NCBI RefSeq assembly: GCF_020149915.1
Contig: NZ_CP083760.1
Span: forward strand, 2,790,001 to 2,854,000
Direction: 5' to 3'
Source: Candidatus Sulfidibacterium hydrothermale
GTDB lineage: Bacteria; Bacteroidota; Bacteroidia; Bacteroidales; F082
Length of the DNA: 64,000 nt
The notes below the pieces were generated by a model that was given only the letters and a program-made list of their open reading frames with translations, was not told where the DNA came from and did no database searches. The position numbers and the translations under genes were made by a program. Of this stretch, positions 44,829 to 51,368 are shown piece after piece; the stretch's first letter is position 1, and every line of letters begins with the position of its first letter.

Positions 44829-45101
44829 TTATTTTTTCCGGCCCACTGTTTTTTCGCCGGTTTTCAGAATTTTTTTCGGATTGATTTTATCCACATCTTC
44901 TTTAAAATCCTGAATGTCGGAAGCCACATCTTTCAGGTCTTTGGCCAAGCCTTCTTCATCCACGGCTTTTTTAAATTCCTTCATTCCTTTTCCTAATCCC
45001 CGTGCCAGCTCCGGGATTTTTTTACCGCCAAAAAGCAGAAGAAGAGCGCCAAAAATAAGAATCAATTCCTGTGTACCGATGAGACCGCAAGTTTGTATCA
45101 T
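44829..45101 (-). CDS. tatA: Twin-arginine translocase subunit TatA/TatE
   Basis: The 90-residue protein has one membrane helix (about 9-24, with [20 protein letters not shown]), the conserved hinge [21 protein letters not shown], and a charged cytoplasmic tail. It forms the pore of the Tat system that exports folded proteins. TatC is not in the window. Its promoter faces away from that of rnpB. Confidence 0.93.
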
Positions 45102-45640: not shown

Positions 45641-46909
45641 TTATTTTGCCATTACCCTATTTCTCAGTTTATAATGCTTGAGAATTTGTTCATTAGAGAG
45701 CCCTTTTTTGGCATACGTCTCCTGAAAAGCTTTCGCAAGGACATGTAAAATCTTATCTACATCTTTTTTAGTCTGGTAAAGAGTTAAAGTAATTCGAAGC
45801 CCCGAATTATTATAAGGCACAGCCGGATAAATAGCCCCTGTAACATGTATCTTGTTTTCGAATAACACACTTGAAATTTCATTAACCAACTCTGGTTTTC
45901 CTGTGGCAACCATTGCAATAGGAGTCGGAGTATAATCAACAACCGGTAAGTCAAGCTCTTCTGCTAATGCATAAAAATACCGAACCAATTCTGCCAGCTG
46001 TTCTTGTCGTTCAACTATTTCATTGCTCAAATGAATCTTGGCCGACTCAATAATTGCTCCCAAAGTAGCAGGCTCTACAGGAGATGTAAACATTAACGGA
46101 ACTCCTAAAACAAGAATTTTTTCACGTATTTCTTCATTTGGACAAACAATGGCACTACCCCCTGCACCGAAACCTTTTCCCAAAGAGGTAATCAAAAACA
46201 TTTTATCGTGATAATCAATCTGCGAAAGCAAATATCCACTGCCGTTTTTTCCTGTCCAGCTCATGCCATGTGCATCATCCACAAAAAGATAAAGCTTAGA
46301 AAGCCGATTCAACATCTCTTCCAGTTCCTTTGCCGGAATGGTATCACCAAACATAGAGTACACTCCATCTGTAAAATACCAAATCTTCTCATACTGATCA
46401 GACAAAGCAGTGTACTTTTCTTCCAAAGCAATCAAATCATTATGATGAATCGTTTCTGTGTGAATTCCGTATGCTCTTAACATATCGGAAGCTATTCGTA
46501 CCGTTGTATGTACCTGATGATCTAAAATAACGGCATCATGACGTCCAATAAGAATAGGCAAAACCGTTATATGCGAAAGAGTTGTACGCGGAAGCAACAA
46601 TACGGGTTTGCCAAAAATACGGGAAACCAATTCTTCTGCTTCCCGATAAATATTGAGTTTCAAAAAGGTTCGGGAAATGGCAGTATAAGTACCATAAGTA
46701 TTAACCGCCCGGATGGACCCCTGCTTCAAACGCTTATCAACAGACAATCCTAAATAATCACAAATTGAAAAATTTAAAAGCTCACCTAAATTTTCAATAT
46801 CAATATATTTTCCATCGAAAACATTATTACTTGTTGTTAAATGAGCTTTCCCATGTGCTCTAAAAAGGTTTATTACTTCTAAGGCCTGTTTGAATAATTT
46901 ACTGTCCAT
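45641..46909 (-). CDS. Atypical alpha-oxoamine synthase (CqsA/LqsA-like candidate)
   Basis: A 422-residue PLP enzyme of the AONS branch (fold type I). Seen: aromatic-stacking His134 in DHQVHTTVRIA, Asp-Ala-His in LFVDDAHGMSW (211-214), Schiff-base Lys245 in ITSLGKGFGAGG, and a late NNSGLRITLTLYQTKKDVDK that binds carboxylate. AONS enzymes join an amino acid or SAM to an acyl-CoA. The usual GSGGSR/H-x-x-LE substrate block of KBL, BioF and serine palmitoyltransferase is replaced here by YTAISRTFLKLNIYREAEEL. A comparable loss occurs in the autoinducer synthases CqsA and LqsA. It diverges from two hybrid kinases with membrane sensors, the neighbour type expected for such a synthase. Substrate and product are inferred. 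Its base composition looks more A+T-rich than its upstream neighbours. A KBL-like or other acyl-amino ketone synthase is the alternative. Confidence 0.8.
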   Translation of the reverse strand: MDSKLFKQALEVINLFRAHGKAHLTTSNNVFDGKYIDIENLGELLNFSICDYLGLSVDKRLKQGSIRAVNTYGTYTAISRTFLKLNIYREAEELVSRIFGKPVLLLPRTTLSHITVLPILIGRHDAVILDHQVHTTVRIASDMLRAYGIHTETIHHNDLIALEEKYTALSDQYEKIWYFTDGVYSMFGDTIPAKELEEMLNRLSKLYLFVDDAHGMSWTGKNGSGYLLSQIDYHDKMFLITSLGKGFGAGGSAIVCPNEEIREKILVLGVPLMFTSPVEPATLGAIIESAKIHLSNEIVERQEQLAELVRYFYALAEELDLPVVDYTPTPIAMVATGKPELVNEISSVLFENKIHVTGAIYPAVPYNNSGLRITLTLYQTKKDVDKILHVLAKAFQETYAKKGLSNEQILKHYKLRNRVMAK

Positions 46910-46931
46910 CTTTTTATGATTAAGAATTACA

Positions 46932-46939
46932 CAAATATA
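46932..46939 (-). promoter_or_regulatory. -7 promoter element of the alpha-oxoamine synthase gene
   Basis: TATATTTG on the minus strand, a perfect TAnnTTTG match, 22 bases before the start codon. Confidence 0.6.
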
Positions 46940-46954
46940 TTCCTATTTTGGGAA
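46940..46954. promoter_or_regulatory. Candidate operator between divergent synthase and kinase promoters
   Basis: TTCC and GGAA form a small inverted repeat with a 7-base spacer, lying exactly between the two divergent -7 elements. A regulator bound here could control both genes. The repeat is short and may be chance. Confidence 0.3.
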
Positions 46955-46961
46955 ATGTTTA

Positions 46962-46969
46962 TAACTTTG
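46962..46969 (+). promoter_or_regulatory. -7 promoter element of hybrid kinase 1
   Basis: TAACTTTG matches TAnnTTTG. It faces away from the synthase promoter, with only 22 bases between the two elements, so the upstream boxes must overlap. Confidence 0.6.
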
Positions 46970-46985
46970 ATAAAAAAATTATTTT

Positions 46986-48674
46986 ATGGACAAAATACTC
47001 TCGTGGTTAAGCCGTGAAAATGGTTTCGAAGAAAACATTGATGCGGAACTCGTTTCTTCCTTGTCATTGGTTGCGCTTATCATTTCTTTAGTCGGTTTTT
47101 TTGTTAATTTTTTAATGCGATTAAACCATTTAGTTTCACTAATAGTCGGGGTATCTATAATTGTTTATTTTACTTTATACAAGTTTTCCAAAAAAGAAAA
47201 ATATCAAACAATTACCAAATGGACGCTGATTGTTTTTTCTATCACATTGTTAAACCTGTTGTGGTATTACAATAATGGTTCGCGCGGTCCGGCTTTGTAC
47301 ATTTTTGTCATCATATACAGTTTTTTTATTCTCGTATTCTCAGGAAAACAGAAAATTATCCTTACTGGTATAGCCAGCTTAAACGTCATAATCCTTTTTC
47401 TGTTAGAATACAGAAATCCAAACATGGTAGGGCACTATTACTCTAATCACGATCGTATTATAGATGTTTATACCGCTTTGATATACTACGGGTTAATCTT
47501 TTATGTTTTTCTCACCATTATTAGAGATGCTTACTTAGCCCAATATAAAAAGGCCAAAACAGCCGACAAACTAAAATCAGCCTTTTTAGCAAATATGAGT
47601 CACGAAATACGCACCCCGTTAAATGCCATTGTAGGATTTAGTAATCTACTGGCTGACGGAACCATTAAAGACGAAGAAAAGGAACAATACGTTTCGATTA
47701 TTAATACCAGCAGCGAAACATTACTTCAGCTCATTGACGATATTCTGGATGTCTCCATGATCGAAGCCAACCAAGTAAAAATTAATGCCGAATTTTTTTC
47801 GGTCAATGATCTGATGCAAAACCTGAAAGAAACCTACACTCCTTCTCTGAAAAAGAAAAAAGGAGACGCCGTAACTTTAGAATTGCAGATTCCCAAAGAC
47901 ACCTTTCTGATTACATCGGATCCCATCCGGATAAACCAGGTTATGATCAATCTGTTAAACAATGCGGTAAAATTTACAGAAAAAGGTAAAATTTCTTTCG
48001 GGTTTTCTGCCCAAGGAGAACAACTCCGCTTTTTCGTGAAAGATACCGGAATTGGCATCGAACCAAGCCACATAAATTACCTTTTCGACCGGTTTTATAA
48101 AATTGAGGATGATAACAAAAAACTGTACCGCGGCACAGGAATCGGATTATATCTTTGCAAAAAAATTACCGAAATGTTGGGAGGTTCTATCCATGTAAGA
48201 TCCGAATTCGGAAAAGGTTCAGAATTTTTCTTTTTCTTACCGGCTAAAGATCTTACTGTCAAACCAGCAATTACAAACATACAACACAAAGAAACAACAG
48301 AAAGCATACAGCTTCCCAAAGGGACGGTACTTATCATTGAAGACGACCCCAGCAGCAGAATTTACTTTAAAAAGGTGCTAGAAAAGCAACAAATCCACAT
48401 ACTGGAAGCAGCCGGAGGGCACGAAGGCGTAAAAATTTTTCGTGAAACCCCCGATATTTCAATAGTCCTGCTGGACATTAGATTACCCGGCACAAGTGGG
48501 TTTGAAATTTTAAAAGAACTGAAAAAGATCAATCCCAATGTACCGGTTATTGCTCAAACGGCTTTCGCCATGACAGGCGACCGTGAAAAATGTATGGCAG
48601 CCGGATTTACAGAATACATTTCCAAACCCGTCAAAAAAGACAGGTTGATTGCCTTACTTCATAAATACATATAA
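46986..48674 (+). CDS. Hybrid sensor histidine kinase 1 with six-helix membrane sensor
   Basis: A 562-residue protein. Residues about 25-183 contain six predicted membrane helices with short loops and no PAS, GAF or large periplasmic domain; a conserved loop reads NNGSRGP. A HisKA domain follows (phospho-acceptor His206 in ANMSHEIRTPLNAI), then HATPase_c (N-box LLNNAVKF near 323-330, DTGIGI 353-358, GTGIGLYL). A C-terminal receiver domain carries the acidic pair EDD (452-454), phospho-acceptor Asp497 in LLDIRLPG and Lys547 in SKPV. The design (6TM sensor, HK, receiver) is that of CqsS. An Hpt partner would be needed to pass the phosphate on and is not seen here. The gene is divergent from the AONS gene. 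Confidence 0.93.
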   Translation: MDKILSWLSRENGFEENIDAELVSSLSLVALIISLVGFFVNFLMRLNHLVSLIVGVSIIVYFTLYKFSKKEKYQTITKWTLIVFSITLLNLLWYYNNGSRGPALYIFVIIYSFFILVFSGKQKIILTGIASLNVIILFLLEYRNPNMVGHYYSNHDRIIDVYTALIYYGLIFYVFLTIIRDAYLAQYKKAKTADKLKSAFLANMSHEIRTPLNAIVGFSNLLADGTIKDEEKEQYVSIINTSSETLLQLIDDILDVSMIEANQVKINAEFFSVNDLMQNLKETYTPSLKKKKGDAVTLELQIPKDTFLITSDPIRINQVMINLLNNAVKFTEKGKISFGFSAQGEQLRFFVKDTGIGIEPSHINYLFDRFYKIEDDNKKLYRGTGIGLYLCKKITEMLGGSIHVRSEFGKGSEFFFFLPAKDLTVKPAITNIQHKETTESIQLPKGTVLIIEDDPSSRIYFKKVLEKQQIHILEAAGGHEGVKIFRETPDISIVLLDIRLPGTSGFEILKELKKINPNVPVIAQTAFAMTGDREKCMAAGFTEYISKPVKKDRLIALLHKYI

Positions 48675-48958
48675 GATTATATTTTACCACCCCTTTAATT
48701 ACACCTAAACGCCAAAGTATCAATTATTTCAACAAACAAACTCACTTACAAGAATCAGGACTTGGCAATCTGTTGAAAAATGACTAATTTTGTTAAAAAG
48801 TACGAAAGCTTAGGCAAAATATAAATTGCTTCTTTCCCGTTTAAACAAAAAAAAACGGGAAGAGCAAGTTGAGCCATTTTCAAAATTAAAAAAGGAGTCA
48901 AGGACTCCGGATTCGATAGAATTTTTATTTACAACAAAAGGGTTTAAATCCGTACGAT
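48675..48958 (+). promoter_or_regulatory. Structured leader upstream of hybrid kinase 2
   Basis: The 284-base gap holds a TAnnTTTG element at 48785-48792 (TAATTTTG) and then two stable hairpins in the leader: a long one at 48826-48867 (TTTCCCGTTT with AAACGGGA, extended by TTGCT/AGCAA) and a perfect one at 48894-48908 (GGAGTC-AAG-GACTCC). Neither is followed by a T-run. The hairpins suggest post-transcriptional control of the second kinase; this is inference. Confidence 0.5.
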
Positions 48959-50659
48959 ATGAATTTATTTACAGCCAATTATAAAAGGAATCAAATAAAA
49001 GATGAAGAGTGGTTTTCTTTCGAAAAGCACTTTCTCATCCCGTTAAGTTTAACGGCCATTTTTTTTGCATTTGTTTCAGCCTGCTTAAACATTATTATTG
49101 GATTCAACCAGGTCTTAATAACCATCCCATTTATAAGTATGGTTATTTTCCTTGTTGTTTATTATCTGGCAAAAAAAGGGCAACATCTTGTTTTCGCCAA
49201 ATGGCTTTTTATCGGCACTACATTAATCATTATAAATCTGGTCTGGTATTACAATTACGGAGCGCGTGGCCCTTGGCTTTTCCTTCTGGTCCTGCTCTAT
49301 AGTTATCTTATTTTTATGATGAGTGGGAGACAGCTCCTAATACTAAGCATATTACTGATAATTAATATTTTATCTTTGTTTTTTTATGAGTATCAACATC
49401 CTTTTACACTAGGAAACTATCCATCTGAAAAAGCAAGAATTTTGGATTTTTACTCCGCCATCCTTTTATCGGGGGCAACAGCTTATGTCTTAATGACCAT
49501 GGCCAAAAGAGCTTATACCACCCAATATAAAAAAGCGAAAATGGCCGATAAGCTCAAATCATCATTTTTGGCCAATATGAGTCACGAAATCCGTACCCCG
49601 CTGAATGCCATTGTCGGATTTAGTAATTTGCTGGCCGACGGCACAATCAAAGAGGAAGAAAGGGAAGAATACATTGCCATTATCAACAGCAGCAACGAAA
49701 CACTATTGCAGCTCATTGATGACATTCTGGATGTATCCATGATTGAGGCCAACCAATTAAAAACAAACGAGGAGCCTTTTTCCGTTAATGAACTCCTGAA
49801 AAAACTGGAAATGACGTACCAGCCAATTCTGGCAAAGAAAAAGAAGAATACCGTCCGTTTAAAATTGAATATTCCTGCTGAAAACCATATTATCACTTCT
49901 GATCCCATAAGAATCAACCAACTTATGGTCAATTTACTGAACAACGCCATAAAATTTACGGAAAAGGGATTCATTGAAATTGGTTTTTACCTGAAAAACA
50001 ACACTATCCGATTCTTTATCAAAGACACCGGTATTGGCATTGAACAAGAACATCTCGAACATCTTTTTGACCGTTTTTATAAAATCGAAGACGATAAATC
50101 CAAGCTATATCGCGGAACCGGTATCGGATTATACCTCTGTAAAAAAATTGCAGAAATGCTGAACGGAACCATTTCTGTTACTTCAGAACCGGGGAAAGGT
50201 TCGGAATTTATTTTTTCCATTTCGGCCAAAAACCTGGTGGTAAAACATACCGATGAGAGCAAGAAAAAATTAAATCTTCAAGCTTCCGGTTTTTCCATTC
50301 CAGACAGCACGGTGCTACTTATTGAAGATGACCTGAACAGCCGGATCTATTTCAGGAAGATTATGGAAGAGCTTCATCTCACCATTCTGGAAGCTCCCGA
50401 TGGGCCTTCCGGAATCAAGCTTTTTAAAGAAAACCCGGATATTGCTTTGGTACTTCTTGACATCCGGTTACCCGGAATAAGCGGCTTTGACGTACTAAAA
50501 GAACTTAAAAAAATCAATCCGAATATACCGGTCATTGCCCAAACGGCCTTTGCCATGGCCGGCGACAAAGAGGATTGTATGGCTGCCGGTTTTAAAGACT
50601 ACATTTCCAAACCAGTAAACCGTCACAAGCTCATCCAACTGCTGCAAAAATACATCTGA
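48959..50659 (+). CDS. Hybrid sensor histidine kinase 2 (paralogue of kinase 1)
   Basis: A 566-residue tandem paralogue of the previous gene with the same order: six membrane helices (about 27-183, with the loop YNYGARGPW), HisKA (His209 in ANMSHEIRTPLNAI), HATPase_c (LLNNAIKF, DTGIGI, GTGIGLYL) and a receiver domain (EDD, LLDIRLPG, SKPV). The kinase and receiver parts are highly alike in the two proteins while the membrane sensors differ more, as expected if the copies read different or related signals. Two sensors beside one synthase recalls LqsS and LqsT in Legionella. It has its own promoter and a structured leader, so it is not simply cotranscribed with kinase 1. Confidence 0.93.
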   Translation: MNLFTANYKRNQIKDEEWFSFEKHFLIPLSLTAIFFAFVSACLNIIIGFNQVLITIPFISMVIFLVVYYLAKKGQHLVFAKWLFIGTTLIIINLVWYYNYGARGPWLFLLVLLYSYLIFMMSGRQLLILSILLIINILSLFFYEYQHPFTLGNYPSEKARILDFYSAILLSGATAYVLMTMAKRAYTTQYKKAKMADKLKSSFLANMSHEIRTPLNAIVGFSNLLADGTIKEEEREEYIAIINSSNETLLQLIDDILDVSMIEANQLKTNEEPFSVNELLKKLEMTYQPILAKKKKNTVRLKLNIPAENHIITSDPIRINQLMVNLLNNAIKFTEKGFIEIGFYLKNNTIRFFIKDTGIGIEQEHLEHLFDRFYKIEDDKSKLYRGTGIGLYLCKKIAEMLNGTISVTSEPGKGSEFIFSISAKNLVVKHTDESKKKLNLQASGFSIPDSTVLLIEDDLNSRIYFRKIMEELHLTILEAPDGPSGIKLFKENPDIALVLLDIRLPGISGFDVLKELKKINPNIPVIAQTAFAMAGDKEDCMAAGFKDYISKPVNRHKLIQLLQKYI

Positions 50660-50723
50660 TGTTTCCGGAACCTTTTGTCCATGAAGAATAATCGTATTTT
50701 TGTTTTCCGGTAATTCTCTGCTT

Positions 50724-51368
50724 ATGGCTAAAAAACTACAACGTAAGGAAAGACATAACATTATTCTGCTCCTGCTTATTCTCATTTATGTATTTATCCT
50801 TTCTCCGTTCCCGCCCAGTGAGGGCCGGCGGATAGCCTACAGCATCACTTTAAGCGGAATATTTATTATCGCCGTTTTTGCGATCAAAAAGAAAAGCAAC
50901 CTTTATTTTTATCTGAGCGGAATAGCCATTATTCTGGAATGGGTTTCTGATTTTTACAACCTCACCGCATTACAATGGTTAACTTCCGGAACAACACTAT
51001 TATTTTTCAACATCGCCATCATTACCATGATGATCCGCATTGCAAAAAGCAAACGGGCAGGTGCGTTGGAGTTTCTCGAAGCCATCAACATTTATTTTCT
51101 GCTCGGCATTTTAGGCTCTGTATTTTTCAGCATAATCCATCTGTATTCACAAGGAGCTTTCCGTTTCCCGGAAGGAGTTATCCCTACCCGGTCCGATTTT
51201 ATTTACTATAGTTTCGTCACCATCTCCACCCTGGGTTACGGTGACATTATTCCCGTGTCGCCACTGGCTAAAAACTTTTCTATTTTTATCAGCATCAGCG
51301 GTCAGCTTTATCTCGCTATGGTAGTGGCCATGCTGGTAGGAAAATATCTGAGTGAAAAAACAAAATAA
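50724..51368 (+). CDS. Two-pore-helix-type potassium channel protein
   Basis: With the ATG at 50724 the protein has 214 residues. Several N-terminal membrane helices (about 15-110) are followed by a pore module: a helix, the selectivity filter TISTLGYGDIIP, and a final helix (ISISGQLYLAMVVAMLVG). The filter TLGYGD indicates K+ selectivity. The RCK domain common in such channels is absent. It starts 64 bases after the second kinase and may be cotranscribed with it or simply be a neighbour. Confidence 0.82.
   Translation: MAKKLQRKERHNIILLLLILIYVFILSPFPPSEGRRIAYSITLSGIFIIAVFAIKKKSNLYFYLSGIAIILEWVSDFYNLTALQWLTSGTTLLFFNIAIITMMIRIAKSKRAGALEFLEAINIYFLLGILGSVFFSIIHLYSQGAFRFPEGVIPTRSDFIYYSFVTISTLGYGDIIPVSPLAKNFSIFISISGQLYLAMVVAMLVGKYLSEKTK

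Follow-up and report, generated by a model that had tools for sequence, protein, structure and literature searches.

Does a single locus allow a member of the Bacteroidota to make a small lipid-like signal and to sense it? The cell-to-cell signals that these bacteria themselves make and sense are poorly known. The question is raised by a group of genes in a 64,000-nucleotide stretch (the window) of the genome of Candidatus Sulfidibacterium hydrothermale (3.27 Mb, one contig), in which an enzyme of the alpha-oxoamine synthase fold, dependent on pyridoxal 5'-phosphate (PLP), is encoded divergently from two tandem hybrid histidine kinases, K1 and K2. A sequence-only reading had described this arrangement, with 76 bp between the divergent genes, and the coordinates of the open reading frames (ORFs) agree with it. 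The same reading had proposed that the locus makes and senses a lipid-like signal and is of the CqsA/CqsS kind. It was found that the synthase-kinase coupling is conserved and that the kinase input is multi-helical, in line with the first proposal; the assignment to the CqsA/CqsS family could not be maintained. Recurrence over several families, a common multi-helix input and exchange at a fixed site make a signalling role the best reading, and the locus is probably a self-contained lipid-type signalling cassette.

Recurrence of the synthase-kinase pair and its fixed chromosomal site

Within the genus, the synthase was detected in 9 of 12 genomes and the kinase sensor in 10. Both were present in nine genomes and neither in two (G295 and G298), while one genome (G302), where one kinase is cut off by a contig end, had kinases only; the pair is gained and lost as a unit. 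A divergent kinase adjoins 10 of the 11 synthase genes of the genus, the remaining gene lying at a contig end. A twelfth match (L042, 29% identity) clusters with SPT and was excluded from this count. The pair was also found in three further families of the order, with adjoining genes in two of them (L053 and L055) and, in the third (L054), a 150-aa helix-turn-helix gene in between and a kinase that has no receiver domain. Directly after the L055 kinase, a 158-aa ORF (L055:13348-13821) gave a weak match to the sensor model (25 bits) and none to Pfam; judged by this match, it is perhaps a stand-alone part of the sensor domain. The synthase was present in 12 of 295 genomes of the order sample (E 1e-40), and a relative of it in 9 of 395 genomes of the phylum sample (E 1e-70). 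In seven of the eight phylum relatives besides that of the window the open frame was 648-839 aa, long enough for a fused form.

The named-genome set comprised the best 80 of 310 relatives, whose loci share descent; 68 synthases were stand-alone and 12 were fused to a FemAB-like domain. A histidine kinase lay within 1 kb in 34 of the 45 stand-alone loci with at least 2.5 kb on both sides (23 of the 68 were left out for short flanks), and it was the very next ORF in 25. Over all 68 loci, the figure was 41. In the control with KBL, a housekeeping relative, a kinase was found within 1 kb at only 1 of 35 loci; this control started from 40 mostly best-scoring loci, two of which were dropped since the gene was not recognised by the model and three for short flanks. 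Chance neighbourhood is ruled out by this comparison, with the limit that a single order supplied the KBL loci, whereas the synthase loci are spread over several groups, including Methylococcaceae and Bacillota. Adjoining pairs occurred in records titled Bacteroidales, Saprospiraceae, Chitinophagaceae and Catalimonadaceae. The pairing is kept in the genus and in other Bacteroidota families far above the control level, a recurrence which the sequence-only reading had named as its check. The 11 stand-alone loci without a kinase include five from Methylobacter/Methylococcaceae, a Lewinella metagenome-assembled genome and Flavilitoribacter. The models used to recognise the kinase and FemAB domains were based on six and three sequences, respectively, and may therefore miss other types.

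Two related synthase classes have other surroundings. The FemAB-fused class, with the FemAB-like domain at the C-terminus and a length of about 810 aa (L056:9509-11932, L057:9735-12176, L129:5932-8355, L139 and L142), has DUF7793/SpoIIAA-like proteins alongside, and a kinase was nearby in 3 of 6 fused loci. At L129 and L139 hybrid kinases without hydrophobic segments stand beside the fused synthase. These loci possibly represent a separate branch of this kind of signalling. Another class stands beside an AMP-binding ligase (L060:7202-12369, L061:1202-8040, L062:8826-14348), with an additional B12-binding radical SAM protein at L061. L062 adds a further synthase-like protein, shorter than the first, together with a kinase in which the sensor is recognised by the sensor model of the window.

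Within the genus, the cassette occupies a fixed site between a TatA gene and an ion-channel gene. The distance between them is 5.6 kb in the window and about 0.5 kb in G298, where the cassette is absent. In G296 and G297 the same site carries one synthase and one kinase. The flanking genes of these two genomes are 69-87% identical to those of the window, whereas the synthases share only 47-48% identity. Their single kinase is the counterpart of K2, with 66-67% identity in the sensor and 70-71% in the kinase core. K1 resembles it to a similar extent in the core (67-71%) but only at 36-37% in the sensor, and the drop was placed at the sensor-kinase junction. Synthase and K1 sensor have thus diverged while the site stayed the same. 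The trees separate two synthase types: one unites the window synthase with a gene each from G303 and G304, and the other comprises those of G296, G297, G299, G300 and G301 and the second genes of G303 and G304. In G304 (L045:5545-11716) both types stand in tandem, each with a kinase, one of the kinases being split into two ORFs.

A plain reading of this site is that one synthase type gave way to another, which brought its own new sensor, and that K2 is the earlier receptor, still retained. The divergence of synthase and K1 sensor beyond that of the flanks, together with the absence of the whole cassette elsewhere, fits an exchange of signal types. Distances between synthases and their adjacent sensors were correlated (r 0.77, 13 pairs, reached in 0 of 5000 permutations). 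However, the kinase core correlated with the synthase nearly as well, and the value was still 0.67 when K2 was substituted for K1, so that the correlation is no proof of co-evolution.

Place of the synthase in its superfamily

The only Pfam match of the synthase was Aminotran_1_2. An AONS-type core had been noted from the sequence, and its residues His134, Asp211, His214 and Lys245 were indeed invariant in an alignment with 20 relatives. Arg372 was also invariant and aligns with an arginine of E. coli BioF, which we take to bind the carboxylate of the amino acid. The substrate block had been described as non-standard, and this holds: GTYTAISR stands for GSGGSR, with the SR retained, and YREAEE for H-x-x-LE. 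Since the aligned alpha-hydroxyketone (AHK) synthases of the CqsA/LqsA type deviate from the standard block as well, this departure alone is not distinctive.

The best NCBIfam match was PRK07505 (NF005697), at 243 bits and below the cut-off of 342. The AHK-synthase model NF005526 (CqsA/LqsA) gave 78 bits against a cut-off of 428, and the KBL, SPT and BioF models remained under their cut-offs. In a tree of 64 proteins, 37 rows of which belong to the window family, this family was monophyletic (support 99/98) with PRK07505 as its sister, and the AHK synthases formed a separate clade (100/100). A union of the AHK synthases with the window family to the exclusion of PRK07505 was rejected by the approximately unbiased (AU) test (p 3.5e-8), as was a union with the window's own subgroup (p 1.3e-9). 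A deeper union with the whole superclade including PRK07505 was not rejected (AU p 0.33), indicating that the order of the deep branches is not fixed. CqsA/LqsA membership was rejected on both score and tree. Membership of KBL, SPT or BioF was ruled out by the low scores and by a position outside these clades; a firm place inside KBL or SPT would have refuted the sequence-only reading. The genome carries a KBL of its own.

The sister family PRK07505 is annotated as "hypothetical protein". Two of its enzymes, over the family cut-off, were located on enterobacterial plasmids (L252:5923-7164 and L253:4908-6131), one beside asnB and the other beside a major facilitator superfamily transporter. They look like small-molecule biosynthesis genes, with no annotated kinase in the stretch examined, whereas the window synthase is kinase-coupled.

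Sensor domains, proposed signal route and competing explanations

Besides HisKA, HATPase_c and Response_reg, no Pfam domain was found in K1 or K2. The sequence-only reading had assigned a six-helix input to both kinases. For K1, AlphaFold2 predicted six membrane-length helices in residues 15-194 (pLDDT 84), the last of which extends towards the kinase; a simple hydropathy scan gave six segments for K2 but only five for K1. The predicted K1 sensor matched the membrane domain of adenylyl cyclases over the whole domain, and this fold was predicted in both sensor groups modelled. No sequence match to the PDB was obtained at E 1 for the sensors, and nothing was found there for an LqsS-type sensor either. 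Searches of ten sensor domains against Pfam and NCBIfam at E 10 gave weak matches only, among them MASE6, MASE7 and RegB.

In published work, C18 mono-unsaturated fatty acids inhibit the cyclase Rv1625c if it has its membrane domain but not otherwise (PMC12505454), and the membrane domains of mammalian adenylyl cyclases are described as lipid receptors (PMC11606603). The Vibrio CqsS sensor, described as of identical six-helix design, can replace the membrane anchor of Rv1625c, whereupon CAI-1 stimulates the cyclase (PMC4821796). From these data, the K1 sensor would have the predicted fold of a lipid receptor, one interchangeable with a known quorum-sensing receptor, and by analogy K1 may bind a lipid.

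We infer the following route, including its chemistry, product release, binding, direction of the response and output. With PLP, the synthase would most likely join an amino-acid-like substrate and an acyl thioester, and the product would be a small, lipophilic amino-ketone or a derivative of one. The neighbourhood of the synthase in the window shows no obvious modifying enzyme, so general metabolism would have to provide the substrates and any tailoring. Once released, the product would partition into membranes, where K1, and perhaps K2, would bind it through the six-helix domain. Binding would alter autophosphorylation of the kinase, and the phosphate would be passed to the kinase's own receiver domain. 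The receiver domains would need a histidine phosphotransfer (Hpt) partner, probably a free protein encoded elsewhere, from which a regulator would be reached. When the whole genome was searched for Hpt domains, three places were found and none of them lies in the window, in agreement with the earlier remark that the window holds no such gene; one is a free-standing 115-aa protein (G000:C1:1728822-1729046).

The main rival to signalling, which we consider unlikely, is local control of a membrane-lipid enzyme: the synthase would make a structural or storage amino-lipid, and the kinases would monitor the membrane and control the synthase, with no signal passing between cells. In the phylum, the first step of sphingolipid and sulfonolipid synthesis is carried out by members of the same enzyme superfamily, as indicated by the abstract of PMC9304779 and by the SPT models, and the FemAB fusions and AMP-binding ligases of some related synthases are what lipid enzymes might have. 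However, no lipid gene lies directly beside the cassette in the window, its neighbours being TatA and the ion channel. The genome also carries an SPT-like gene distinct from the synthase (620 bits, slightly under the cut-off of 640). Local control would also have to accommodate the divergence of synthase and K1 sensor far beyond their neighbours, the second receptor in the window, and a genome (G302) with kinases and no detected synthase, albeit at a contig edge.

It is very improbable that the six-helix domain binds quinones for RegB-like redox sensing, with the synthase as a metabolic neighbour. A single NCBIfam match, a weak one to ActS/PrrB/RegB, covers most of the K1 sensor (E 0.63; residues 32-172 aligned with model positions 27-167), but its 8.8 bits compare with a cut-off of 350, and K2 gave no match. 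A G-x-x-G-P loop, present in most of the window's sensor group, may sit at the position of the RegB motif GGXXNPF (motif from PMC8191878; the alignment is inferred); K1 reads NNGSRGP and K2 NYGARGP there, and neither matches the motif. The fold match is to adenylyl cyclase, and redox sensing leaves both the recurrent coupling to one synthase clade and the strong divergence of the K1 sensor unexplained. We give hardly any credence to the view that the locus is simply a divergent representative of the CqsA/CqsS (LqsA/LqsS) family. The gene arrangement, enzyme superfamily and membrane sensor are the same, AHK loci with a divergent or adjacent LqsS-type hybrid kinase exist (L210, L280-L285), and the deep sister relation is not rejected; against this are the synthase score, the rejected unions and sensors without LqsS similarity.

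Within the preferred reading, that of a lipid-type signalling cassette, a wider proposal is put forward tentatively. The locus may represent a second class of quorum sensing by lipid ketones, one that evolved independently and occurs in several Bacteroidota families, in which a PRK07505-like synthase clade has repeatedly been coupled to six-helix receptors on different kinase bodies and species swap signal types at a fixed site. K1 would combine a resident-type core with a sensor that has diverged strongly. K2, the receptor which in congeners goes with the other synthase type, would listen to a signal that the window no longer makes.

The features are collected in Table 1; names of flanking genes were assigned by eye, except for TatA, the ion channel and a 440-aa aminotransferase. 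The pattern TTTG-N17-21-TANNTTTG, which we take to be a Bacteroidota promoter consensus, had no strict match within 45641-50659, including the intergenic region. Across the window it matched 10 times against 3.7 expected, a number reached in 0 of 100 shuffles, suggesting that it marks real promoters in this genome.

Table 1. Features of the synthase-kinase locus and its flanks (positions in the window)
Feature	Position	Strand	Basis
Synthase, alpha-oxoamine synthase-fold PLP enzyme, probable signal synthase, 422 aa	45641..46909	-	ORF, Pfam, NCBIfam, alignments, tree
Divergent intergenic region synthase/K1, 76 bp	46910..46985	.	between ORFs
K1, six-helix hybrid histidine kinase, 562 aa	46986..48674	+	ORF, Pfam, AlphaFold2
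K1 membrane sensor domain, six-helix, about residues 1-193	46986..47564	+	
K1 HisKA (residues 197-261) and HATPase_c (312-421)	47574..48248	+	Pfam
K1 receiver domain, residues 448-558	48327..48659	+	Pfam
K2, second hybrid histidine kinase, six hydrophobic segments, 566 aa	48959..50659	+	ORF, Pfam, hydropathy
K2 membrane sensor domain, about residues 1-196	48959..49546	+	66-67% identity to single-kinase sensor at G296/G297 site
K2 HisKA (residues 200-264) and HATPase_c (315-422)	49556..50224	+	Pfam
K2 receiver domain, residues 452-562	50312..50644	+	Pfam
TatA, flank marking the insertion site, outside the system	44829..45101	-	Pfam
Ion-channel-like gene (Ion_trans_2), other insertion-site flank, outside the system	50700..51368	+	Pfam

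Comparison with known systems

Reference AHK synthases were taken from Gammaproteobacteria, the class of a Methylococcaceae genome, where 6 of 274 genomes were over the cut-off; one of them scored 331 bits against the sequence of a CqsA structure, and a kinase was nearby at 4 of 7 reference loci. A model of four LqsS-type sensors found six further kinases of AHK loci at 70-139 bits but neither K1 nor K2 at E 1, and hhalign gave 0.04% for a window sensor against an LqsS-type sensor. In the phylum sample, AHK synthases above the NF005526 cut-off were present in 30 of 395 genomes, all in one family (f136) of another class, and an LqsS-type sensor kinase stood beside the synthase at all six loci examined there (L280-L285). 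This family is probably that of the green sulfur bacteria, which we take GTDB to place in this phylum. For green sulfur bacteria a cqsA/cqsS pair has been described, and in one of them cqsA was lost and cqsS kept (PMC10158934). CqsS-like six-helix kinase domains from Bacteroidetes and Chlorobia were already listed in 2016 (PMC4821796). The statement that no system of this kind is established in the phylum therefore has to be narrowed. A PRK07505-like synthase-kinase pair was not found in the titles and abstract openings of the papers listed; two quorum-sensing reviews (PMC13220807 and PMC8895600) were covered by key words only.

The window synthase has its superfamily and catalytic residues in common with SPT, KBL and BioF, but it lies outside their clades and below their cut-offs. 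With the membrane domain of adenylyl cyclases (Rv1625c and mammalian AC5/8/9) the predicted K1 sensor would share the fold, at 8% sequence identity; the output is a cyclase in those proteins and a histidine kinase here. If the proposed reading is true, the cassette would provide natural partners for this membrane fold, about whose ligands there has long been uncertainty, and oxoamine-synthase signalling would have arisen or been recruited on two or more occasions, always together with a membrane-helix sensor. A concrete candidate for a Bacteroidota synthase-receptor pair is now available for assay.

Legionella has two sensors, LqsS and LqsT, as there are two kinases in the window. In CqsA/CqsS of Vibrio, LqsA/LqsS of Legionella and JqsA/JqsS of Janthinobacterium, a PLP oxoamine synthase is encoded beside a membrane sensor histidine kinase, as in the window (PMC3376566, PMC3285556, PMC3566124). 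A sensor kinase gene adjoins the synthase as in AHK loci, K1 has the CqsS/LqsS architecture of a six-helix input followed by a histidine kinase, and CqsS is a hybrid kinase like K1 and K2. These systems differ from that of the window in having a synthase of another clade and a sensor without detectable sequence similarity, and no LqsR-type gene was found in the window locus. The likeness to CqsA/CqsS seen by the sequence-only reading thus holds for a divergent synthase coupled to multi-helix kinases and not for membership: it is functional and perhaps extends to the sensor fold. Because of its separate synthase clade and sensors without LqsS similarity, the window system is regarded as a functional analogue, and the cassette is read as a lipid-signal synthase that was derived independently and is accompanied by its receptors.

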